Below are positions 6,386 to 43,018 of a stretch of DNA of 64,000 bases, one piece after another (the first letter of the stretch is position 1; each line of letters starts with the position of its first letter). Below the pieces are notes generated by a model. The model searched no databases. It saw only the letters and a list, made by a program, of their open reading frames with translations, and was not told the DNA's origin. Position numbers and translations under genes: made by a program. The DNA lies in assembly GCA_021797555.1 (NCBI GenBank), contig JAJZZM010000013.1, positions 186,001-250,000 of the forward strand, read 5' to 3'. This stretch comes from Thermoplasmata archaeon (GTDB lineage: Archaea; Thermoplasmatota; Thermoplasmata; Thermoplasmatales; Thermoplasmataceae).

Positions 6386-6730
6386 TTATAATTCTACCAT
6401 TAAATTTCCATCCTCAATTTTTGTATTATATGAATTCAGGTCTTTTGCCTCTTTTCTTGTCATGGCCTTAAAAAACCCGTTTATGTTTTTTGTTACCTTC
6501 CCAGTTTTTAAATCAAATTGTGCATGGTGTTTCGGGCATATTACTGTATTATCATTAGTTTTGCCTTTCCCAAGATCTCCACCCATATGTGAGCATAATG
6601 CATCTATTGCATAGTATTTATTATCGAAGTTAGATATAACTATTTTTTTGCCGTTTATATCAAATTCCTTTAACTTTCCATTTTCTATATCCCCGGTTTT
6701 GCATACAGTATTCCATGTCATAATTGTCAA
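6386..6730 (-). CDS. Rieske [2Fe-2S] ferredoxin-type protein
   Basis: CSHMGGDLGKG...CPKHHAQFDLKTGKV. Confidence 0.85.
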   Translation of the reverse strand: MTIMTWNTVCKTGDIENGKLKEFDINGKKIVISNFDNKYYAIDALCSHMGGDLGKGKTNDNTVICPKHHAQFDLKTGKVTKNINGFFKAMTRKEAKDLNSYNTKIEDGNLMVEL

Positions 6731-6846
6731 TTGTATATTATAATTGGCATATATAAATTATGGCATGTACAGATTTATTATGGATATTTCGATTATATAT
6801 TTAAATATAGGAAATGTTAAAATATAACTAAGTACATAACCTTAGA

Positions 6847-7350
6847 ATGAATAATATATTAAAAGGGATTGCAAAAGAATACCCGGTAAATGAGTTGATA
6901 AATTATGTTGGCCTTATAGCAATCTCAGTATCATTATGGAATATTGACTTTTCAATAGATAAAATTGTCAATATACCATTTATATTTCACACAATTCAAA
7001 TATCTGGTGTACAGTTATATATGCTTTCATTCTTTTTAATATATTTAGTTTCAATACTTTTCATGCTGACAAATAGATATTACCATTCATTAATTGTTTT
7101 ATTCGATTTTATAACTGCAATAAATTTCATGTTATTTGTTTCATACCAGTTTGACTATATATCGCTGGCATTATATGGCATATACTGGAACGATGCAATA
7201 TTCTTTTTTGGATATCCAATAATACTGGCATTTTTATTTTTAAACTCATTTAAAAGGCATAAAAGGCAGATGGATATGGAAGATGCCATGGTAATTAATA
7301 ATATACAGATAGAAAACAATAAACAAAATGTAAAAAAATCAACAAAATAA
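6847..7350 (+). CDS. membrane protein of unknown function
   Basis: 167 aa with several hydrophobic helices. Confidence 0.6.
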   Translation: MNNILKGIAKEYPVNELINYVGLIAISVSLWNIDFSIDKIVNIPFIFHTIQISGVQLYMLSFFLIYLVSILFMLTNRYYHSLIVLFDFITAINFMLFVSYQFDYISLALYGIYWNDAIFFFGYPIILAFLFLNSFKRHKRQMDMEDAMVINNIQIENNKQNVKKSTK

Positions 7351-29880: not shown

Positions 29881-30363
29881 ATGGATATTGAGGAAATAAA
29901 TATAGAAATACCTGAAAATTCTAATATAATTTTAGGTTATTCCCATTTTATAAAAACAGTCGAGGACCTAAATGAAATAATAAAAACAACAATTCCGGAT
30001 AGCAGATATGCGGTAGTATTTTCAGAGGCTTCTGGAGAAAGGCTTATAAGATACGAAGGCAATGATAAATCGTTAATAGACTCCGGAATAGAAAACATAA
30101 AAAAAATATCCTCCGGGCATACATTTATAATATTATTAAAAAATGCATATCCAATAAACGTTTTAAATGCAATTAAAATGTGCCAGGAAGTCGGAAATAT
30201 ATTTGCTGCAACTGCAAATCCATTAAAGGTAATAGTTGCAAAAACCGAAAATGGCAATGCTATATTGGGTGTATCCGATGGCTTTTCACCTTTAGGGGTA
30301 GAAACAGAAAAGGACAAGGAAAAACGCAGAAAGCTTTTAAGGGATATAGGATACAAGTTTTAG
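29881..30363 (+). CDS. adenosine-specific kinase family (DUF355)
   Basis: NIILGYSHFIKTVEDL; FSEASGERLIRYEGND; AATANPLKVIVAKTENGNAILGVSDGFSPLGVETEKDKEKRRKLLRDIGYKF. Confidence 0.85.
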   Translation: MDIEEINIEIPENSNIILGYSHFIKTVEDLNEIIKTTIPDSRYAVVFSEASGERLIRYEGNDKSLIDSGIENIKKISSGHTFIILLKNAYPINVLNAIKMCQEVGNIFAATANPLKVIVAKTENGNAILGVSDGFSPLGVETEKDKEKRRKLLRDIGYKF

Positions 30364-30435
30364 GGCCCGTGGTGTAACGGATTATCATATAAGCCTCCGG
30401 AGCTTATAATCCGGGTTCGAATCCCGGCGGGCTCA
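30363..30435 (+). tRNA. tRNA-Arg (anticodon CCG)
   Basis: 73-nt cloverleaf: acceptor GGGCCCG/CGGGCTC, anticodon arm TAAGC-CTCCGGA-GCTTA, T arm CCGGG-TTCGAAT-CCCGG, discriminator A; D-arm pairing is imperfect. Confidence 0.88.
30420..30435 (+). repeat. attL: 3' end of tRNA-Arg (AATCCCGGCGGGCTCA)
   Basis: 12 bp CCGGCGGGCTCA identical to 40,892-40,903; 16 bp with one mismatch. Confidence 0.75.
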
Positions 30436-30742
30436 CTCTCTATTGTGTTTTATTTTTTTTATTTTATAAGGAAACATTATATTTTAAACGTAAAATATGG
30501 TACTTATAATTTGATATTTTGCTATTTCCTTTATATACTCTTGGCATGTTTTTGGATCAGGTTTATAAATATAAAAATGGTTAAATAAAAATAAACACAA
30601 TCTGTTTAAATTGATTTTTATTTATGCCTCTTATATAAACGATATTTGCATTGAATCAGATCAAGCCTTATAATTTACTACCCGATAAGTTTAGTAGCCT
30701 TAAATCGCAAATTAAGCCTATTAAAATGCTTATGCAGATAAA

Positions 30743-30940
30743 TCATAAATGTAATCTGTGCATTTTCATGCAATGACCCTTTACATAAGTATTTCCCTTC
30801 CTTTTGTATGCTGGAACCCATGTGTAACCCACAGGGCATTTTTCAAGGCTTGTCTGCATATTGTTATAATAGGGCATCTCCTCTTCCTGTTCTTCTTTTT
30901 TCTTTTTAATTTCCTCAACGGCTCCGTTTGCTTCTGCCAT
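30743..30940 (-). CDS. small protein with CPxGYxxVPxYxRKxGxxVxGHC motif
   Basis: MAEANGAVEEIKKKKEEQEEEMPYYNNMQTSLEKCPVGYTWVPAYKRKGNTYVKGHCMKMHRLHL. Confidence 0.6.
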   Translation of the reverse strand: MAEANGAVEEIKKKKEEQEEEMPYYNNMQTSLEKCPVGYTWVPAYKRKGNTYVKGHCMKMHRLHL

Positions 30941-31068
30941 ATTTTAATATAAACAAGATTAGTATTTAAAATTTAACATAAAAATAAAATGCCCATTATC
31001 AATAATTTATAAGATATCGATTTATCGATAAGGTTATTTAAAATAAAGCATTTGAATCGATAAAAAAG

Positions 31069-32076
31069 TTATTTGGCTTTTATCTTGCTCCATACAGATT
31101 TGTTTTTAACCTGTGTGTTTAATAAACCAAGATACTTTAATGCCTCATCCAGATTGGTTAAAACCTGAATCTGACCTGTTCTTCCAAAGCTTACTGTATT
31201 GCCTGTTATATCGCCGTTGTTAAAATGATGTTTTGCAGTATTAAGTGAATCATCTATTGCAGATATTAATTTCTGTGGGTTATGTGCCATAAAGGCATTC
31301 ATCTCATTCTGTGCGTTCTCTTTCTCTGCCTCTATTTGTTTTCTTAAATTTTCCCTTATCTCGTTGAATTTGTAATCTGTTAAAAAATCATTATCGTTTA
31401 TTAGTTTCTTAATCTCCTCTGCCTGATCATTTAGTAATTTTAAAGTGTTCTTTTGGTCTGGCGTAAGTGTTATTACTCCAAGCATATAATCCTGAATATT
31501 CTCTGGCTTCTTGTTATTGAATATTGAATTATACAATGCCTTAAAAGATTCATTGAAACTTTTAATCTTTTTTAGAACTTCAGGTTCTTCAAGATTGCCA
31601 ACCTGTCTGTCCATTTCATCCTTGCGTTTGTTAATATCCTCTAATTTAGTATGCCACTCCTCCCATTCTTTTTCTTTTTCTTTAATTTCAGATTTTAACT
31701 TATATTCCTCATCCTTACTTTTTCTTATCTCTTCTAAAATGTTATTTTTCTCTTCCCTTATCCTTTTCAGTTTATCTTCATTGCTTTCTATGACTACAAT
31801 GCCTTCAAGTTCCTTTGCCACATCCACAAGATATAATGGATTGAGAGGGTCACATAACTCTTTAATTACTTTCTGGTGTTCTGGGTATTTGTTATAAATG
31901 AATAGGGCAGATTCGGGGTTGTCTTTTAAATAATGATAAACCTGCTCAATCTTTGGATGTTCACCAAGAATCCATGCATCCTCCTCTAACCAGCCAACCT
32001 TTTTCTTTAATTCCTCATTCTCGCCCTTTAATTTCTTATAATAATTCGGCTTTGGTTTGTTTTCTTTTTTCACCAT
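31069..32076 (-). CDS. coiled-coil protein of unknown function (element-encoded)
   Basis: 335 aa, Lys/Glu-rich heptad-like central region. Confidence 0.7.
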   Translation of the reverse strand: MVKKENKPKPNYYKKLKGENEELKKKVGWLEEDAWILGEHPKIEQVYHYLKDNPESALFIYNKYPEHQKVIKELCDPLNPLYLVDVAKELEGIVVIESNEDKLKRIREEKNNILEEIRKSKDEEYKLKSEIKEKEKEWEEWHTKLEDINKRKDEMDRQVGNLEEPEVLKKIKSFNESFKALYNSIFNNKKPENIQDYMLGVITLTPDQKNTLKLLNDQAEEIKKLINDNDFLTDYKFNEIRENLRKQIEAEKENAQNEMNAFMAHNPQKLISAIDDSLNTAKHHFNNGDITGNTVSFGRTGQIQVLTNLDEALKYLGLLNTQVKNKSVWSKIKAK

Positions 32077-32502
32077 AATGTATTGAATTGGATGGTGTAT
32101 ATAAGTTTAACCAATTTTAATATCTTTTTAATGTGCTTTAAATATATTTTTAATATGGTTTTAATGCCTGTATTCTTATGGAGAACTAACATATTACTAT
32201 GTTTGCCATATAGTTTTATGGTGATTTCCCTAAAAACACGATTATCTGTATTTTTTCCTCTAATGTATATATACACGCGTGCGAGGAATTTAAAAAAAAT
32301 TGGATTTTGCCGACCACAAATTTTAAATTGAAATATATGAATAATACCAGATCCAGAATAAAAAATGCCTGTATTCCATCGAAAAATTTACCGAAAAAAT
32401 CCTTTAAAATGCGTGATAACACCGAAAAAAGATATTTTAAAAAATTTACCATTTAAGTTATTCGCACGTGCGAAAAATACCTTAAAAAAAATTTTTTTGC
32501 GA

Positions 32503-32592
32503 TGCATAAGCCAAGGCTTATCTTTTATATGGTATTATAACACGCCACAACGGGCTTAATTCAAGTGATTCATCATAAGTGAGTTAATTTAC
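32503..32592 (+). repeat. left copy of ~90 bp imperfect direct repeat flanking the R-M genes
   Basis: 24 bp TTATAACACGCCACAACGGGCTTA at 32,535-32,558 identical to 34,839-34,862; flanks also similar. Confidence 0.85.
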
Positions 32593-32712
32593 CCCTATTT
32601 GTAAATAATAAAATTCAATGTGGAATCTAATTATTTTTTCACTATAAAATGGATAATTTACCAAATGAATGGTATTATGAGATAAATTCATGCATAAGCG
32701 AAAGTAATTTGA

Positions 32713-33363
32713 TTAAGGATATTCAAATAAGATATTTTCTGCCTTGTAAAGTTCTTTGTTGTTGGTATTAAATTCATTCTTAACATCTACATTTAACTTT
32801 TCTAATGTCAGTAATTTAAAGCCTTTTGCATAAAAACGTAATTGTCTTTTTTCCATTTCAAAACTTACCAAAAAGTGATGAGCGTTTGCAGTTATCTTAA
32901 AGTCATTTGAAGGCGATAAATAAAAACTTCTTAAAGATGAGTTCAAACTATTTTCATTAAATGTTTTACATTCTAAATAGTTCTCTCTGCCTGTTTTATC
33001 AGTAAAAACAATATCTGGGTATCCGCTTGATTTTTCTTTGCCTGATGCAGTAATTGGGGTATGTGCATTACAACCTAACTTTGTTAGTTCATTTTTAACA
33101 TAGGGTTCTATAGCATTTCCTGCCTCATTAGGTCTATCTGATTTTGGTTTTATACCATTAAGATTTATTGATTGCATAGCATTTTTACATGTATTGATTA
33201 AGCAATCTAAAAGTTCTTTATCTTTAGGATCTGACCTATCAAAATCAATAATATCATAGCCAGATAAAGATTTTATAACTATCTTCAATGGAATGTCTTT
33301 TAATGGAGCTAACATTTTTTTAATAACATCTTCTAATTGTTTAACATATTCATCATCAACCAT
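32713..33363 (-). CDS. putative Type II restriction endonuclease (PD-(D/E)xK fold)
   Basis: GYPDIVFTDKTGRENYLECKTF nuclease motif; 11 bp from a DNA methyltransferase gene. Confidence 0.65.
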   Translation of the reverse strand: MVDDEYVKQLEDVIKKMLAPLKDIPLKIVIKSLSGYDIIDFDRSDPKDKELLDCLINTCKNAMQSINLNGIKPKSDRPNEAGNAIEPYVKNELTKLGCNAHTPITASGKEKSSGYPDIVFTDKTGRENYLECKTFNENSLNSSLRSFYLSPSNDFKITANAHHFLVSFEMEKRQLRFYAKGFKLLTLEKLNVDVKNEFNTNNKELYKAENILFEYP

Positions 33364-33374
33364 ATTTACACCTT

Positions 33375-34580
33375 TTATATTTTTTGGAATAATACAATAC
33401 GATTTGTATTAGTTCCTTTTTTATTATTATCTACCCCCCATATATTAGAGGTTTTAGTAAATGTTTGCATATTGATAAATGTTGATATATGCCTAAATCC
33501 TAATTCTATACCAATTTTATATACTATTTCACTTAAATCTGCTTTTTTAGTTTCCCCAACTTCAAATGCAACATATCCTCGTATTTTGCTAACTCTGTAA
33601 ATCTCTTTTAATGTTTCTTTAATAAATGATGACCATTTATTTAAATCACTTAATATAGTTATTTTATCTTTTAATTTTGAATAATCATATCCATTAAACC
33701 ATAAGCGAAGCCAATTATCCTTGACATAATTTACTAAATTTATAAAAGGCGGGGAAGTTATTGTTATGTCTACAAAACCATCTTTTAGTTCTTTCAAATT
33801 CCTGCTATCATCTTCTAAAAATATTACATTTTTGGATATATCGAAAAGATTTTTTCTAATATCAGGGCTTATATCTTTTAATAGAGATTTTGATTTTTTC
33901 AAAATTATTCTCTTAACATTTCTATACTCTGGTTTTTGATTTAAGCGTTTATTGATTTTTATTTGTTCCTCTTGCGTAGCTGATTGATTAGGTGGTAAAG
34001 TATATACAGAAAAAAATCCTTTAGAATGCCCTGATAATCTATTCGTGGCTACCATTCTTATCCATTTATCTATATAATCCTCTTTACCTTCTTCTTTTCT
34101 TGCTATCAAATAGTTTTTTAAAGAAATTATTTCTCCTTCAGTTTTTCTTTCATAAAACATTGATAAATCTATATCTGCACTTTCTTTAACATCAAATGAA
34201 ATTTCTGATAATCTATTAGATATATCCTCTATTGTAGGTGGCATTAAACGGGGTTCTGTAAGTATTTTTGATATTGGATTAATATCATTAGATATTGGAA
34301 TTCTACCCAATAATGCACTTTCAATTGCTGTTGTTCCTCTACCAGCAAAAGGATCTAAAACTATACTTTTACTATTAGAATATTTAGATAAAAAAAAATC
34401 AGGTAATTGTGGTTTAAAACATGCTCTATAAGATATTTCTTGTATGCTATTACCATATCTTTGTTTATTGGTCCAAAAACTACCATATACTAATTTTTCT
34501 CCATTCTTGCCTATTTTATAATCATAATTATTAGTATTGATTATAGTAAAACTATCTAATTTACTTTGATTTTCGATCAT
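33375..34580 (-). CDS. DNA methyltransferase (N4-cytosine/N6-adenine type)
   Basis: VLDPFAGRGTTAIESALLGR and ITSPPFINLVNYVKDNWLRLWF motifs. Confidence 0.88.
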   Translation of the reverse strand: MIENQSKLDSFTIINTNNYDYKIGKNGEKLVYGSFWTNKQRYGNSIQEISYRACFKPQLPDFFLSKYSNSKSIVLDPFAGRGTTAIESALLGRIPISNDINPISKILTEPRLMPPTIEDISNRLSEISFDVKESADIDLSMFYERKTEGEIISLKNYLIARKEEGKEDYIDKWIRMVATNRLSGHSKGFFSVYTLPPNQSATQEEQIKINKRLNQKPEYRNVKRIILKKSKSLLKDISPDIRKNLFDISKNVIFLEDDSRNLKELKDGFVDITITSPPFINLVNYVKDNWLRLWFNGYDYSKLKDKITILSDLNKWSSFIKETLKEIYRVSKIRGYVAFEVGETKKADLSEIVYKIGIELGFRHISTFINMQTFTKTSNIWGVDNNKKGTNTNRIVLFQKI

Positions 34581-34807
34581 GCCTCTATCACTCCTTTATA
34601 TCAAACCTGCTTTTTAATTCGCTTTGGATTAACTTGTTATCTGGCATGAGCATTTGCACTTTTAATTTGTAATACCTTATTTTTCTTATAATATTTAATA
34701 ATATTAAATTAAGTTTTATCATATATATAATAGCATTATTAAATAGTTTATAAAATTTAGCATAACAAAATTAAATATTATTAATTATAATAGAAATAGA
34801 GTTTATG

Positions 34808-34898
34808 GCATACGATCCAAGACTTATCTAATATGGTTTTATAACACGCCACAACGGGCTTATTTTTAATGAATCATTATCTTATGGTTAATTTATAC
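34808..34898 (+). repeat. right copy of ~90 bp imperfect direct repeat flanking the R-M genes
   Basis: 24 bp exact core at 34,839-34,862. Confidence 0.85.
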
Positions 34899-34963
34899 AC
34901 ATGCAAAGTGTTTCATTTAAAATAATAATATAAAAGGCAATTTTATGGCTTAAAAACTAATAT

Positions 34964-35213
34964 AAAAATGGTTGTGGGGTCTTGGTTTAAACATAATAAT
35001 AAAAATGGTTGTGGGGTCTGGATCCAGATCAATTTCTTTATTCCTTTTTTTATCTGAACCAAGATGCAAGAACCAAGAACATTTATATCTGGCAATCACA
35101 ATTATTAATTCCTTCTGGTTCTTTTTATTGTTCTGGTTTTTTATTGTTCTGGATCCAGATCCCCCCCATTCCCTTTGTTCTGGATCAAGAACCAAGAACC
35201 CTTTAAAATAAAC
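34964..35213. repeat. GC-richer repeat cluster 'C' (TCTKGRTT-like words, both orientations) ending in CCCTTTAAAA
   Basis: AAAAATGGTTGTGGGGTCT at 34,964 and 35,001; TTCTGG at 35,113/35,131/35,147/35,178; GAACCAAGA at 35,056 and 35,070; AAGAACC at 35,187 and 35,194; core at 35,199-35,208. Confidence 0.7.
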
Positions 35214-35260
35214 CCCTGAACAATATATTCTTATAAACAAGATTATCTGGGCTATCAAAA

Positions 35261-35547
35261 ATAATTACTAATAATTACCAAATAATTACAAAATAATTAC
35301 TTCTGAAACCCTTTAATTCATTAACTCAAAATAACCTTTTCAAAAAAGTAATTATGTAATTATAATTTCTCCCTTCATGTGTAGAAAATAATTTAAATTA
35401 AAAAACCAAAATAAAATTCAAAAAAATATTTTTTTTTGTATAAGGATGATGAAAAAAATAATTACATAATTACTTTTAATGCAAACCCTTTAAAACACTG
35501 GCTTAAAAGAGTAATTATTTTGTAATTATCAATAATTACATAATTAC
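35261..35547. repeat. iteron module A: twelve 8-bp sites of ATAATTAC (or reverse complement GTAATTAT) around two cores
   Basis: Direct words at 35261, 35271, 35282, 35293, 35458, 35466, 35532, 35540; inverted at 35348, 35356, 35511, 35522; cores CCTTTAATTC at 35310 and CCTTTAAAACACTGG at 35487. Confidence 0.9.
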
Positions 35548-35558
35548 TTTTTATAAAA

Positions 35559-35842
35559 ATAGTTAAAAATAGTTAAAGAATAGTTAAAAAATAGTTAAAG
35601 AGAAAATCCTTTAAAACACTACTTCTCTATTATATATTTCAAGTTTTAACTATTTAACCATGAATTCTCCCTATACAAAAAAATAATTTAAAAAATAAAA
35701 ACAAAATAAAAATCAAAATAAAAAAAATATTTCTTATAGGGGGGCAAAAAAGATGGTTAAATAGTTAAAAACGATGGTGAGCCTTTAAAACACTGGCTCC
35801 AAACTTTAACTATTTTTTAACCATCGATGGTTAAATAGTTAA
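35559..35842. repeat. iteron module B: twelve 8-bp sites of ATAGTTAA/ATGGTTAA (or reverse complement) around two cores
   Basis: Direct words at 35559, 35569, 35580, 35591, 35753, 35761, 35827, 35835; inverted at 35646, 35654, 35806, 35817; cores CCTTTAAAACACT at 35608 and CCTTTAAAACACTGG at 35782. Confidence 0.9.
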
Positions 35843-35864
35843 AAATAATTAAAAAAAAATAAAA

Positions 35865-38036
35865 TTATAATCCAAGATCTTCTGGTGATGGGACATTCCC
35901 AGTCCAAATATTAACATTATTCTCGGTTTTCTCAGTTTTAGTCTTGGTTTTAGTTTCCTTTTCAGTCTCTTTTTCATTTAGCATTTCTGCGTATTTATCT
36001 GGCAAAGAACCCTCAATTCCCATATTTCTATTCCCTTCAATATATGTGGTTTTATATACGAATCCATTCCCATCTGCAAAGTTTCTCGCACTCTGGTTTA
36101 TGCCCAGCCCTTTTTTTATAAAGTTAAATCCAGCCACAGTTATCTGGAAGATCCACTTTTTATTGTCTTTATTATCCTCCTCAATTTTAAATTCACTCTG
36201 CATTTCTTTATCCTCGTAAGATAAATTTTTATAACCATCAGAAGAATGCATTGCATCTTCTTTGTTATAATGGAGGCTTAACATCTTTGCAAAGAATTCA
36301 TCGATAATTTCAGGCACTTCTATTTTAGAAACCACAGGAATAAAGTCAGGATTATCCTCAATCCACGCACCAAGCAGTGAAACAACTTTTCTGCCATCAT
36401 CCTCTTTGCGTTTTAATTCCCTGTATTTTTTAACAATGTCATTAATGTTTTTCTTTTTTAATTTATCATATAGCATTCCTCCTGCCATGCTCTTGATTCT
36501 GTTTATAAATTCTTTGCCCTTATCCTGTGTTACCTTATCTATGACATCATTTTTATCAAATACAAACTTATAAATCCTTTTATCCTGTGCTTTTTTCTCC
36601 ATTGCGTCAATATCTTTTATATCCTTTGATTCGGTGTTTCTGGAGAATATAAAGGTTGCAAGAACATCGTAATTTGTTAAAGATTTATCCATATTGCCCC
36701 TTATGTTCTTTCCAGTGGATTTTAATCTTGACATGGATCTCTCATCAAGCAGTGCTTCTTCAATGTATATGGGGAGATTTGTTGCATTTGCAATTGCATG
36801 GTGCCTAAATGAGCTTTTTAATGCATCATCGTTCATCTTTGCCCTGAATATGCCATAATCCATTGCCAGAGCCATATCAATGGTGAAACTCTTGCCAGTA
36901 TCGGATTCTCCAATGGCATCAATTGTTACAAGATAATCTTCAAATCCTATCACGTTTATTATATTTGCACCGATAATGCCATAATATAGTGTTAATTGCT
37001 TGGGTGTCAGCAAATCAATGCCTTCTTTATAAACATTGAAATCCATTTGCCCGATATTTAAACCACTTATCAGGACTTTCTGATAATCCACATCCCTTCT
37101 GGCATAACATTTATCTGGGAATTTAATTATTTCATCCTCAATATAAAATTTGGGTTCTTTGTATTCTCCCTCTTCGATAGGAAGGGCATTAAGGCATTCA
37201 GTGAATAAATTAACATTGCCCGGATAGACAGTTATATTCACAAATTCAGATTTATTAAAGACCTCACCATTAAATTCAATCATATCCACGCCATCAATTT
37301 TAAGCCGTTTTATTTTATCCTGAATAGGTTCACCATCCTGATTTTTCAATGTTATTTTTGTTTTTATATATTTTATGCCGTAGGTGTTTTCAACAATACT
37401 TAAATTGTAAGGATTCTCTTGTTCCCACCCAGCGTATACTGCCGGCTGATTATTCACCCATTTTATTGGTACCCATAAACCTTTGTCTATTTCATTGTTT
37501 ATTTCATTGTTTATATTTTTGATATTTATTTTTTTGTGCAATTTTATTATCTCTCCCCATTCATTTTTTAGCTGGGTTTTTGAATAATGTTTGGCAATTT
37601 CAAAAGCCTCTGACACTTCTGCTTCATTCCAATCTTCTTTATTCAGCAAAATCACAGCCATCACACCATCATCTCTGGAGAATCCCTCCCCGTTTAATAT
37701 AGTAGCCATGTCAGCATTAAGGCTATCCAACTTTTTTAATGAATCCCTTATCAATTTCTTGTAGATTGATTCAACTTCATTATCACTTTTTAGGTCATCA
37801 TTTGGTACTGGTTTTTTCACTGGTGGTTTTTGGTGTTTAAGAGGTTCTGGGTGTGGATATTTTTTCAAAATTTCATCAGCCTTCTTTTTGGCATCTGCTG
37901 TTTTTTTCTTTTCATCAGCCAACCTTATCTTTTCTTCATCAGAAAGTTTAAAGAGATCATCAAGCACATCATTGTCTGGCTTTATATCTGGTTTGCCATC
38001 TTTGATATTTTTTATATCTTTTTTATCTTCTGCCAT
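35865..38036 (-). CDS. putative AAA/helicase-type replication protein of the element
   Basis: Walker A-like TIDAIGESDTGKSFTIDMA, Walker B-like NLPIYIEEALLDE, and FIFSRNTESKDI sensor-like region. Start moved to MAEDKK because GGAGGTGGT lies just upstream. Confidence 0.6.
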   Translation of the reverse strand: MAEDKKDIKNIKDGKPDIKPDNDVLDDLFKLSDEEKIRLADEKKKTADAKKKADEILKKYPHPEPLKHQKPPVKKPVPNDDLKSDNEVESIYKKLIRDSLKKLDSLNADMATILNGEGFSRDDGVMAVILLNKEDWNEAEVSEAFEIAKHYSKTQLKNEWGEIIKLHKKINIKNINNEINNEIDKGLWVPIKWVNNQPAVYAGWEQENPYNLSIVENTYGIKYIKTKITLKNQDGEPIQDKIKRLKIDGVDMIEFNGEVFNKSEFVNITVYPGNVNLFTECLNALPIEEGEYKEPKFYIEDEIIKFPDKCYARRDVDYQKVLISGLNIGQMDFNVYKEGIDLLTPKQLTLYYGIIGANIINVIGFEDYLVTIDAIGESDTGKSFTIDMALAMDYGIFRAKMNDDALKSSFRHHAIANATNLPIYIEEALLDERSMSRLKSTGKNIRGNMDKSLTNYDVLATFIFSRNTESKDIKDIDAMEKKAQDKRIYKFVFDKNDVIDKVTQDKGKEFINRIKSMAGGMLYDKLKKKNINDIVKKYRELKRKEDDGRKVVSLLGAWIEDNPDFIPVVSKIEVPEIIDEFFAKMLSLHYNKEDAMHSSDGYKNLSYEDKEMQSEFKIEEDNKDNKKWIFQITVAGFNFIKKGLGINQSARNFADGNGFVYKTTYIEGNRNMGIEGSLPDKYAEMLNEKETEKETKTKTKTEKTENNVNIWTGNVPSPEDLGL

Positions 38037-38037
38037 T

Positions 38038-38355
38038 TTATACCACCTCCACTGTTGCAATCGCTGATTTTAAAACTATTATGGGCTTCTCTACTTCTCT
38101 GGTTATATTCCCATTAAAAACCTGATTTGTCTTTGTCTTTATGGTCAGATCGTACATGCCAAGATTACTCAGAATCCCTGTTATTTCACGCCCGTTGATT
38201 AATGTAATTTTAAGGTTTTTATTTAATAAAGTTTTATTTAGATCATCTGTGCCATATCGCAAGGGCTTTTGAACTTTATTGCTTTCATTATCTTTAAATA
38301 CTTTTAAATCCTTATTGTTCTTGTTGTTATCCACAACATTGTTATTTTTATACAT
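38038..38355 (-). CDS. Sm/Hfq-like (LSm fold) protein
   Basis: LLNKNLKITLINGREITGILSNLGMYDLTIKT...KPIIVLKSAIATVEVV resembles Sm1/Sm2 of Hfq/LSm; preceded by AGAGGTGA. Confidence 0.6.
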   Translation of the reverse strand: MYKNNNVVDNNKNNKDLKVFKDNESNKVQKPLRYGTDDLNKTLLNKNLKITLINGREITGILSNLGMYDLTIKTKTNQVFNGNITREVEKPIIVLKSAIATVEVV

Positions 38356-38362
38356 TTTTTTT

Positions 38363-38509
38363 TCACCTCTTTTCTTTTGCCAGGTTCCACAATAAAGAAA
38401 ACTTCGCTAAAAACTCTGCCTCTGTCATCTGTGATGGTTCTGACATTATTATGGCTTTTAATTTCTCGTCATTTTTTGCAATTTCTCGAAGTGGTTTTAA
38501 ATCTATCAT
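38363..38509 (-). CDS. small ORF in the same operon (48 aa)
   Basis: MIDLKPLREIAKNDEKLKAIIMSEPSQMTEAEFLAKFSLLWNLAKEKR; start overlaps the upstream AbrB stop (ATGA); not in the ORF track. Confidence 0.6.
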   Translation of the reverse strand: MIDLKPLREIAKNDEKLKAIIMSEPSQMTEAEFLAKFSLLWNLAKEKR

Positions 38510-38715
38510 TGATTCCAGGCCTCCTCTTCTGATGGTGCCACTGGCTTCCTGAATGTCAGTAACAAACCATTTCTTTTGAGTTCGAAAATCGCGATATCGT
38601 CCTTCTCTATACCTTTTGCACGCATGTAATCTTTTGGAAGCACGATATACATGCTCCCAGAGAGTTTACGTACGTTACACTTCCAAAACATCTTCTCTTG
38701 ACTCATTGTCATCAA
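38506..38715 (-). CDS. SpoVT/AbrB-type swapped-hairpin DNA-binding protein
   Basis: VRKLSGSMYIVLPKDYMRAKGIEKDDIAIFELKRNGLLLTFRK. Confidence 0.75.
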   Translation of the reverse strand: MMTMSQEKMFWKCNVRKLSGSMYIVLPKDYMRAKGIEKDDIAIFELKRNGLLLTFRKPVAPSEEEAWNQ

Positions 38716-38739
38716 ATCTTTAACAGAAATATACTAATG

Positions 38740-38805
38740 TATTTATTCGCATTAAAATGCTTACATATGAATAAATATATATAAGTGTTAAACATATGTT
38801 AAACA
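38740..38805. promoter_or_regulatory. divergent promoter/operator: inverted repeat TATTTATTC/GAATAAATA and tandem TGTTAAACA x2
   Basis: Arms at 38740-38748 and 38769-38777; TGTTAAACA at 38786 and 38797 (11 bp apart), directly before ATG 38806. Confidence 0.55.
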
Positions 38806-39432
38806 ATGAGTAGTCAGGGAAGACGTGAAAAACTTAAAACCGTTGAGACATTGGTATCATTGTTATTGGCAAATCCAACACTTACAAGAAAGGATATTCT
38901 GGATTTAATGATGGGAAAAAGGCAGGATGCTATTCCAGAATGGCTAAAATTTTCAGGTAAGGATGGAAAACTGAGACCACTAACAAGGCAATCGGTTTAC
39001 AAAGCTCTTGATTTCCTTAGAGATTCAGGGATTCTACATGAAGAATACAATACAATAGGGAGGATAAAGATGCTTGAATCCAATCCCAAAGGGATAAAAA
39101 TTAATAAATATACCATAAAAAGTGTAATTTTAAGCATTGATATGGATCAGGTAAGGAAAAAATACAGGGAATTGTGGATTCAGGGGTTCAGGCAATCAGT
39201 AAATTTTAATGTGCTGTCTGAAAAGGCTAAAAAAATGGCAATAGAACAGATGGGGAGGAGGTTTAATGTTATCAATGCTCTGGATGTGGAAGAAGAGGCT
39301 GAACAAATGGATTTTATAAATAAAAATATGGATGATAATGGTGTCTTAACCTATATGCATCTTCAGGATTTTGACACTGTAATGGAATACCTCAAGATGT
39401 ATGAAAAAAATGCTGATAAATTTATATTATAA
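38806..39432 (+). CDS. winged-helix DNA-binding protein (element regulator)
   Basis: ETLVSLLLANPTLTRKDILDLM...RQSVYKALDFLRDSGILHEEY. Confidence 0.6.
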   Translation: MSSQGRREKLKTVETLVSLLLANPTLTRKDILDLMMGKRQDAIPEWLKFSGKDGKLRPLTRQSVYKALDFLRDSGILHEEYNTIGRIKMLESNPKGIKINKYTIKSVILSIDMDQVRKKYRELWIQGFRQSVNFNVLSEKAKKMAIEQMGRRFNVINALDVEEEAEQMDFINKNMDDNGVLTYMHLQDFDTVMEYLKMYEKNADKFIL

Positions 39433-39511
39433 TAAAAAAAATAAGCCTCCAAACTTGCGATTTAAGGCTTATTCAATATAGCAATGGTATAAATTATGAG
39501 CTGGATCAACA

Positions 39512-40834
39512 TTAAGAATATTCCACGATAACACGATCATTGCCCAGTGCCATTTTAACAGTAAAACCTGCGTTTATGTATTCCTCAACCTGATCAATAG
39601 GTATTACCTTCTGTTTATGCGTTTTGCCCAATTCATCCTTGTCCTTTTCAATCTGGGCAGTTATATCTATTTGCTTGGCACCAAACAATTTATCACGTGC
39701 CATCTTGGTTATTTCATCGGCATTCAGATCAAGAAGCTTGTTTTTAGTAATTTCCTCATCACTAAAACCTGCCATCATTAAAAGCTGTGTTCTAAATTTA
39801 ACTTCTATCTCATCTTCGGTCATGCCCTTCCTCTCGGTTTCAAGGTATTTGGTGGATTTAAGATAAGCAGACCTCATGGATTCAACCATATCAGAGGATA
39901 GCAACCTTTCAGTTGTATAAGTATGCTCTATATCACCTTTGTGCCCCATAAAAAAGGTTCTGTAATCACGTGTAATAAGCCTCTCATCCTGTGCCCTCAG
40001 CAGTCTGGAAGCAAAATAAGGTCTAAGATCGTATGGTCTGTTATCATATCCCGCAGTTCTTATTGCCTTTCTAATAAGCTCAGATACCTTAGTCCTTGAT
40101 ATAAATCCATTATGCCTTAAGGCTAATTTGGAATAGGTCAGGAGTGGTGAATTCTCATTTAGTTCTTCACCTTGATTAATCCTTTCATTTAAATACAAGG
40201 CAATATAATTGCATCCTTCCTGACCAAGAAAAGTAAAATATTCATTTCTCTTTTTAGATATTGTTTTCCTGATCGTAATCTTGGCAGGTATTTTCTCAAA
40301 TTTCACACCATTGCGATCTATTATTAATCCCTCTATATCATTAAGTCTTATCCCATCAGTTCCAGATTCATTGCCAAGGCTCTGTATTCTTATTCCAGAA
40401 AAGGCAACCATGCCAATTGCCACCCTTCCCCTTGGATCAGATGCATTTAATACCTTTCTAAGATCTTCCTGTGAAAATATCTGCTTCCCCTCCAGAGTGG
40501 GAGTTGAATCACTGTCCTTTACTTTTAAATTCATTGATAGTTTTATGCCGTTAAATGAAAGCCATGATTTAACGGCTTTAATATTGCCTTTGATATAGCC
40601 TCCTGCATAATTTTTATCCTCCATGTCTGATATATAATCCCTAAGCATGTCAATTAACTGCCTATCCTTCATTTTCAACAATTTGAAAGGATCAACCCCG
40701 ATGGAAGTGCAAAATAAACCTAATCTTCTCAAATACACTTTTGCAGTTGTTTCAGAACCTCTTCTTAATTCCTTATACCACCTTGCAATTTCCTTATTTT
40801 TTCTAATTTCTTGATATTTTTCCTTCCTTGCCAT
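39512..40834 (-). CDS. tyrosine recombinase / integrase (intact)
   Basis: N-terminal SAM-like region; GMVAFSGIRIQSLGNE; YDLRPYFASRLLRAQDERLITRDYRTFFMGHKGDIEHTYT catalytic region; adjacent to attR. Confidence 0.85.
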   Translation of the reverse strand: MARKEKYQEIRKNKEIARWYKELRRGSETTAKVYLRRLGLFCTSIGVDPFKLLKMKDRQLIDMLRDYISDMEDKNYAGGYIKGNIKAVKSWLSFNGIKLSMNLKVKDSDSTPTLEGKQIFSQEDLRKVLNASDPRGRVAIGMVAFSGIRIQSLGNESGTDGIRLNDIEGLIIDRNGVKFEKIPAKITIRKTISKKRNEYFTFLGQEGCNYIALYLNERINQGEELNENSPLLTYSKLALRHNGFISRTKVSELIRKAIRTAGYDNRPYDLRPYFASRLLRAQDERLITRDYRTFFMGHKGDIEHTYTTERLLSSDMVESMRSAYLKSTKYLETERKGMTEDEIEVKFRTQLLMMAGFSDEEITKNKLLDLNADEITKMARDKLFGAKQIDITAQIEKDKDELGKTHKQKVIPIDQVEEYINAGFTVKMALGNDRVIVEYS

Positions 40835-40887
40835 GTATAATATAATACGTATACCTTATTAATATTTTTCATACGCAATAGCGTACT

Positions 40888-40903
40888 AATACCGGCGGGC
40901 TCA
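40888..40903 (+). repeat. attR (AATACCGGCGGGCTCA)
   Basis: 12 bp exact match to the 3' end of tRNA-Arg. Confidence 0.75.
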
Positions 40904-41796: not shown

Positions 41797-42654
41797 ATGG
41801 TACATATAATTAGCACAATAAATCTTAAGGGAGGCGTTGGAAAAACACAGACAACAATAGCATTATCGGAAATACTTGCAAATAATTATAATAAAAAGGT
41901 TTTAATTATTGATCTTGATCCGCAGACCAATGCCACGGTATCCTTAATGGATGAAACCAAATGGCTTGAGATGGATAAAAAGGGAAATACAATATTCCAA
42001 CTTTTCAGTGACAAGGTATATAATACAGAACTATTCAATATTAACAATTCTATAGTAAAGAATGTTTCAAATGTAAATTCAGGAATAAAAAATCTGGATC
42101 TGCTGCCATCAAGTTTAAGGTTAATTGATATACAGGATAAATTGCCTCTTGTATCAAATTCTGGTTATTTTATAAAAACGCCGATAACAATATTAAAGGA
42201 GGCATTGAATGAAACCATCAAAAATTATGATTATGTAATGATAGATTGCCCACCAAATTTAGGGTTGATAACATTGTCAGGAATTTATATTTCAGATTAT
42301 TATTTAATACCAACAGTTCCAGATATATTATCAACATATGGCATACCGCAGATATTAAGCAGGATTGAAAATTTTAAAATTGATGCAAATATAGATATAA
42401 AGCCACTTGGCATAATAATTTCTATGTTCAGGTCAAACAACAGGCTGCACAACTCAATCATTGATTCATTAAAATATAAGGAACGAAAGGCGGATTATCC
42501 AAGGATTTTCAATACATATATACCATTAAGCATTAAAATATCAGAGGCCGCAGAATTTAACTCAAGAGTTAATACCTTGGGCCAGAAATATGGTTATGAT
42601 TTATATAATAAATATGATGAACTTACTAAGGAGATAATGTCGTATGTCGAATAA
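41797..42654 (+). CDS. ParA/Soj-family ATPase
   Basis: INLKGGVGKTQTTIALSEILA; IIDLDPQTNATVSL; YDYVMIDCPPNLGLITL. Confidence 0.92.
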   Translation: MVHIISTINLKGGVGKTQTTIALSEILANNYNKKVLIIDLDPQTNATVSLMDETKWLEMDKKGNTIFQLFSDKVYNTELFNINNSIVKNVSNVNSGIKNLDLLPSSLRLIDIQDKLPLVSNSGYFIKTPITILKEALNETIKNYDYVMIDCPPNLGLITLSGIYISDYYLIPTVPDILSTYGIPQILSRIENFKIDANIDIKPLGIIISMFRSNNRLHNSIIDSLKYKERKADYPRIFNTYIPLSIKISEAAEFNSRVNTLGQKYGYDLYNKYDELTKEIMSYVE

Positions 42655-43018
42655 GGAAAAAGCCTATGAGCTATCAAAATTATTAAGGTATATTGCAGGT
42701 AAAATAGAAAAAAATCCGGAATTAATAAACAATTTAAAAATAGAAATAAAAATAAAGGATGCTGATGATAAAATTATTAAAAAGAAACCTAATGAAAAAA
42801 TTAAGCTATATGATTTAAATGATAACGAATTATTGAAAAAATTAAAAAAAGAAAGTATAAAAACATTAAAGACTATAATAAGCGAAAATAATCTTGACAG
42901 TTCTAAAAGTACATTAAAAATTAAAGATAAAGATGAATTAATAAATTTTATTATGAAAAGATTACACGACCGTTATTATAAAGGAGAATCATTCAATGTA
43001 AAAAATAATAATCAGTAA
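42644..43018 (+). CDS. small basic ParA-partner protein (function unknown)
   Basis: Overlaps the parA-like stop; helical, Lys-rich, ELLKKLKKESIKTLKTIISENNLDSS. Confidence 0.6.
   Translation: MSNKEKAYELSKLLRYIAGKIEKNPELINNLKIEIKIKDADDKIIKKKPNEKIKLYDLNDNELLKKLKKESIKTLKTIISENNLDSSKSTLKIKDKDELINFIMKRLHDRYYKGESFNVKNNNQ

Follow-up and report, generated by a model that had tools for sequence, protein, structure and literature searches.

Paired twelve-word modules as putative replication origins of an integrated element in Thermoplasmata

The window, a 64,000-nucleotide stretch of a contig from a Thermoplasmata archaeon, contains two tandem stretches of about 290 bases each (modules A and B), in which 12 short words follow one layout while the word itself differs between the two. 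What are these modules for, and how could a word change at 12 sites on a frame that is kept? We propose that an integrative mobile element very probably uses each module as a replication origin, at which a Rep helicase reads the words.

Layout of modules A and B and of their element

A first-pass annotation of this DNA had described two collinear modules of 12 words each, and an exact-match recount returned all 24 word positions and orientations (Table 1). The recount also agreed on the offset from A to B, which is 298 for the first six words and 295 for the last six, and the landmarks proved collinear as well: the cores (35310/35608 and 35487/35782) and a TTCTCCC motif (35367/35665). Each module comprises six plus six words around an A/T-rich centre, with four outer and two inner words per half. 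Module A has ATAATTAC at 12 of 12 sites, and module B is composed of eight ATAGTTAA and four ATGGTTAA words. As had been claimed, word positions 4 and 8 are changed between A and B at every one of the 12 sites; at four of them the change extends to position 3.

The annotation had named shuffled sequence as a control. In 1000 dinucleotide-preserving shuffles of positions 34801-36300, 6-mer clusters as large as the 12 copies observed were absent, the best cluster (both strands, 320 bp) reaching 8 copies in one of the 1000 shuffles. When A or B was shuffled alone, 2000 times, the maximum was 6 and 7 copies. We add to the earlier description that the left core of A has diverged, with CCTTTAATTCATTAAC instead of CCTTTAAAACACTGG. 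The inner double word of B has no further exact match in the host genome. At 84% A+T, the centre of A is barely above its module (82%), the value for the window being 70%. No preferred period of helical phasing was found in the outer-to-inner gaps, for which the vector strength was 0.65-0.69 at every period tried.

Table 1. Features of the integrated element and its two modules (window coordinates)
Feature	Position	Strand	Content and basis
tRNA-Arg(CCG), insertion target	30363..30436	+	attL copy CCGGCGGGCTCA at 30424-30435
Module A	35261..35547	+	12 ATAATTAC words; exact matches, shuffles, same module in L010
Words of module A	35261, 35271, 35282, 35293, (inverted) 35348, 35356, 35458, 35466, (inverted) 35511, 35522, 35532, 35540
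Left core of A	35306..35327	+	AAACCCTTTAATTCATTAACTC; between outer and inner words; identical in L010
A/T-rich centre of A	35364..35457		84% A+T; candidate melting region
Right core of A	35483..35504	+	AAACCCTTTAAAACACTGGCTT; identical in L010, with related sequence in this position in L235 and L312
Module B	35559..35842	+	12 ATAGTTAA/ATGGTTAA words; exact matches, shuffles; stump left in L010
Words of module B	35559, 35569, 35580, 35591, (inverted) 35646, 35654, 35753, 35761, (inverted) 35806, 35817, 35827, 35835
Left core of B	35604..35625	+	AAATCCTTTAAAACACTACTTC
A/T-rich centre of B	35662..35752		80% A+T; candidate melting region
Right core of B	35778..35799	+	TGAGCCTTTAAAACACTGGCTC
rep	35865..38060	-	P-loop helicase-like, 731 aa counted from the listed TTG start; candidate word reader
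Sm-like protein	38038..38355	-	upstream of rep; weak LSM match (E 0.026); homologous ORF at the same place in L010
AbrB/MazE-like protein	38506..38715	-	weak Pfam match (E 0.022)
208-aa ORF	38806..39432	+	possible wHTH (label of the first-pass annotation); no Pfam match
Tyrosine integrase	39512..40834	-	Phage_integrase (E 6.6e-5)
attR, right end of element	40892..40903	+	second CCGGCGGGCTCA copy, just past the integrase gene

The modules had been placed in an integrated element, which is borne out by the att repeat that we found. The element measures about 10.5 kb (30424-40903) and is inserted in tRNA-Arg with a 12-bp att repeat, the 3' end of tRNA-Arg(CCG) forming its left end. The modules lie 3' of the replication gene, as annotated: the helicase-like rep adjoins module B, its stop codon is 22 bp from the end of B, and module A lies beyond B. 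Relatives of the integrase occur in 48 of the 77 genomes of the family. Other cargo includes a coiled-coil-like protein and, at 32713-34580, a possible PD-(D/E)xK nuclease (recognized by eye) adjoining an N4/N6 DNA methylase; the two may form a restriction-modification pair of the element. A 65-bp direct repeat is present at 32527-32591 and 34831-34895 (80% identical), and its second copy adjoins the flank common to L010, a related element. Just beyond the element's right end lies a gene for a ParA-like ATPase, accompanied by a small partner ORF (41797-42654).

Related modules and their Rep helicases

We searched one genome per species for similar modules, using word-agnostic cluster scans near integrases and Rep genes as well as homologues of the Rep of locus L235 and of two further Reps. 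This returned about a dozen further modules with other words, mostly adjoining other Rep helicases, of several types; Rep helicase genes, often with a primase domain, lie beside equivalent modules in about ten other replicons. No Rep was found in the stretches around the L320 and L321 modules. The common plan is four words, a gap, two words, the centre, two words, a gap and four words, and some modules are incomplete. Six modules have exactly six plus six words, and right-half words are partly missing in L283, L323, L316 and L373. The gap between outer and inner words is 41-54 bp in most halves (37 and 66-67 bp in three), and inner words are spaced 7-9 bp, around an A/T-rich centre. Orientation is mirrored at 12 of 12 sites in L317 and L312.

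The words are CTACTACA in L235 and L322, GGTAACC in L318 and L319, TGACTACA in L315 and L317, TACCAC in L283, TTACTACC in L323, AACTACA in L316, CATGGTCA in L372, GTCACA in L373, TTCTCAAA in L320 and GGAATACA in L312. A gap core resembling AAACCCTTTAAAACACTGG occurs above shuffles in L235, L322, L312, L318, L319 and L283, and not above shuffles in L372, L316, L317 and L323. Since the core is recognizable in only part of the modules, its conservation is weaker than that of the plan. In some module-bearing elements Sm-like genes recur, and the module can also be 5' of rep or inside it. The rep ORFs of L318 (716-3910) and L319 (1573-4770) contain the module, whose words thus double as coding sequence. 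The genome of the window itself carries the L312 module (6418-6723), on a different contig (G000 contig C19) and near two ORFs, one integrase-like and one of 1039 aa that resembles a primase-helicase. A long array of TTTTGAACA with 11-12 bp spacing and core-like CATTGAAAACACT sequences was seen in L321 (8014-8772, G024 contig C32), flanked by glycosyltransferase-like genes with no Rep nearby. Arrays in L375 (CGGGAC) and L377 (CCGACA) were not counted as modules, their layout being too loose, nor was the CCTAACC array of L225, a tandem repeat in apparent coding sequence.

The core 15-mer matched 116 genome stretches, scattered over unrelated bacteria and archaea, and no module surrounded the match at the 28 viral loci among the matches listed. 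No relatives turned up in viral contigs, genome contigs or plasmids, whether the query was the window Rep, the A1 profile, the L235 Rep or module DNA. We also considered the core as a box of a host (Orc1/Cdc6) origin and rejected this, as no such cluster lies near orc1/cdc6; the 9 kb around the genome's only Cdc6_C hit held neither the core nor an ORB-like cluster.

The closest relative is L010, from the same genus, whose rep was the sole homologue found among the 77 family genomes (60% Rep identity). The L010 element sits in tRNA-Val with its own att repeat and is arranged like that of the window. The annotation had suggested that other words might fill the 12 positions in related elements, and this is the case: L010 carries module A at the same place and with the same 12 positions, its word being TTGTTAC. 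Between A and L010, 30 of 96 word bases differ, compared with 18 of 202 spacer bases (Fisher p 2.7e-6). In an independent gapped alignment, the right-half spacers were identical at 55/55 positions and the left-half spacers at 64/69, with 66/78 in the centre and 110/112 in the upstream flank. The integrase (62% identity) and most of rep are much less alike than this origin region, and the identity between the two Reps increases toward the module. The similarity of the origin region may reflect exchange or stronger constraint. Because unchanged spacers interleave with the 12 changed words, block exchange cannot explain the new words, and the simplest inference from these alignments would be replacement by site-by-site selection. 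Of module B, L010 also retains a remnant of three or four words that runs straight into the sequence downstream of B, the outcome expected of a deletion between B words. Therefore, A and B probably stood in tandem already in the common ancestor of the two elements.

The window Rep has no Pfam match. A profile alignment running from the P-loop to the C-terminal helix relates it to the L235-type Reps (probability 93.8, E 1.7e-7). The sole PDB match below E 0.001 for a model of the L235 Rep (mean pLDDT 69) was SCCmec Cch (5dgk, E 1.1e-4), with a low TM-score of 0.28; the AlphaFold model of the window Rep had a pLDDT of 35, and its fold search was discarded. Reps with a common word are close to each other (L235/L322 84% identical, L318/L319 81%). 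An SNASNFLNN helix is identical in L235 and L322, which share a word, and the corresponding stretch differs between the window and L010 Reps, whose words differ. This fits a role of the helix as candidate word reader, although it is not proof. Positive selection on the putative recognition helix found no support (dN/dS about 0.4).

Probable origins, and what else the modules could be

Taken together, the collinear recount and the relatives support the annotated view that this is a duplicated protein-binding locus, in which the architecture appears to have been kept while the word changed. Origin, partition centromere and complex operator had all been offered as functions. We favour the first, because equivalent modules adjoin Rep helicase genes elsewhere. 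In a centromere, the words would serve segregation instead of initiation, and their ligand would be a ParB-like adaptor or some other small DNA-binding protein. Arrays of repeated short sites would fit this, as would the nearby ParA-like ATPase and its small partner ORF (41797-43018). However, ParA lies outside the att borders, the recurrent neighbour of modules from other genomes is a Rep helicase, and the L318 and L319 modules are within rep itself, all of which makes a centromere very unlikely. Equally hard to credit is an operator at which a repressor (the wHTH or AbrB-like protein) would control rep or the integrase. The element does encode such small DNA-binding candidates, but the modules are 3' of rep, away from the promoter region of the Sm-rep operon, and the rest of the element has a single TAATTAC and no TAGTTAA. 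Nor would an operator need a 6+6 layout around a centre. The wHTH and AbrB proteins, which the annotation had put forward as binders, are accordingly not favoured over Rep, the part that recurs beside modules.

A different alternative accepts both modules as origin-type and has one Rep tolerate both words, so that their difference would be drift within one specificity and no switch. The element has a single rep, and the three words of A, B and L010 have T..TTA in common, with pairwise differences at two or three positions. Drift of this kind would leave mixed words among the sites, whereas the A words are uniform (12/12) and all 12 are unlike B at two fixed positions. In L010 all 12 words differ again, with the spacers kept. 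We consider a single tolerant Rep unlikely, if clearly less so than a centromere or an operator.

Read as an origin, a module could work as follows. The C-terminal domain of each Rep subunit would bind one word of 7-8 bp, and the six words of one half would seat one self-loading Rep hexamer. Two hexamers facing each other across the centre would then melt the A/T-rich DNA, followed by bidirectional replication. The word would serve as an address that matches each origin with its own Rep, and an element whose word changed would escape cross-talk with related replicons. The second module may be an ancestral or spare origin, or may be read by the Rep of another element.

Comparison with known origins and evolution of the word

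In PICI origins, an A/T-rich region stands between two sets of iterons whose sequence varies between elements, and this organization has been described as absent from other known bacterial replicons (PMC6092414). The window element resembles PICIs such as SaPIbov1 and the E. coli types in that it is integrated, its modules lie directly 3' of rep, short words (six per side) stand on either side of an A/T-rich region, and the word differs between elements. In PICIs and SaPIs the helicase reads the iterons with its C-terminal domain (PMC7581432), as the window Rep would. Unlike PICIs, the element has an archaeal host, a fixed 12-site plan in which each half has a core and an inner pair set apart, and two putative origins with different words. 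By analogy, the best reading is that the modules would work like PICI/SaPI origins; we do not claim membership in the PICIs.

Other systems are similar in fewer respects. Cch2 binds repeats downstream of its own gene with its C-terminal domain (PMC7581432), and in the PDB the L235 Rep model (pLDDT 69, TM-score 0.28) significantly matched SCCmec Cch alone. In contrast to the modules, SCC origins are not described as having a 6+6 plan, and their iterons are few, with three in the Cch2 site. In the archaeal plasmid pRN1, a required origin region is 3' of the gene for a primase-helicase that has a C-terminal winged helix, and the origin is a stem-loop of about 100 nt, stated to be without iteron structure (PMC4234260). 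The window element shares the archaeal host and the position 3' of rep, but its modules are built from iterons and are not of the pRN1 type. As phage P4 is summarized in the same paper (PMC4234260), its alpha protein is a primase-helicase with a winged-helix domain that binds origin repeats. This primase-helicase-type initiator with repeats at its origin is the likeness to the modules, the primase of P4 being a bacterial TOPRIM primase. The P4 origin has two cis regions, which are not known to differ in word, whereas the words of A and B differ. The literature searched, which left out most subscription papers, contained no description of origins of this type in Thermoplasmata.

What appears to be new is the combination of archaeal hosts, a fixed 12-site plan and wholesale word replacement with the spacers kept. 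An origin organization described as unique to PICIs among known bacterial replicons would have a similar form in archaea. The fixed frame leads to a structural prediction of two hexamers with one subunit per word, and the words on one frame, paired with their Rep sequences, form a data set for learning how helicases read origins. With A and L010, the evolution of origin specificity and plasmid incompatibility becomes testable.

More tentatively, the modules may belong to a class of archaeal origins whose address, the word, can be exchanged. The whole set of 12 sites would be rewritten jointly on the fixed frame, faster than the intervening DNA, driven by escape from cross-talk, and a second origin could be addressed to a foreign Rep, as a decoy or as a route to replication by another element. 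We regard this extended proposal as possible, with the balance somewhat against it. One rep and two words were found in the window element and likewise in L010, where a second array lies upstream of the TTGTTAC module (6784-7109). It has eight sites of the word TTGGGACA in alternating orientation, with gaps of 25-44-116-44-16. In the TGCGAAA array of L369, which lies near a different Rep type, the skeleton is likewise about 44-116-44 bp.
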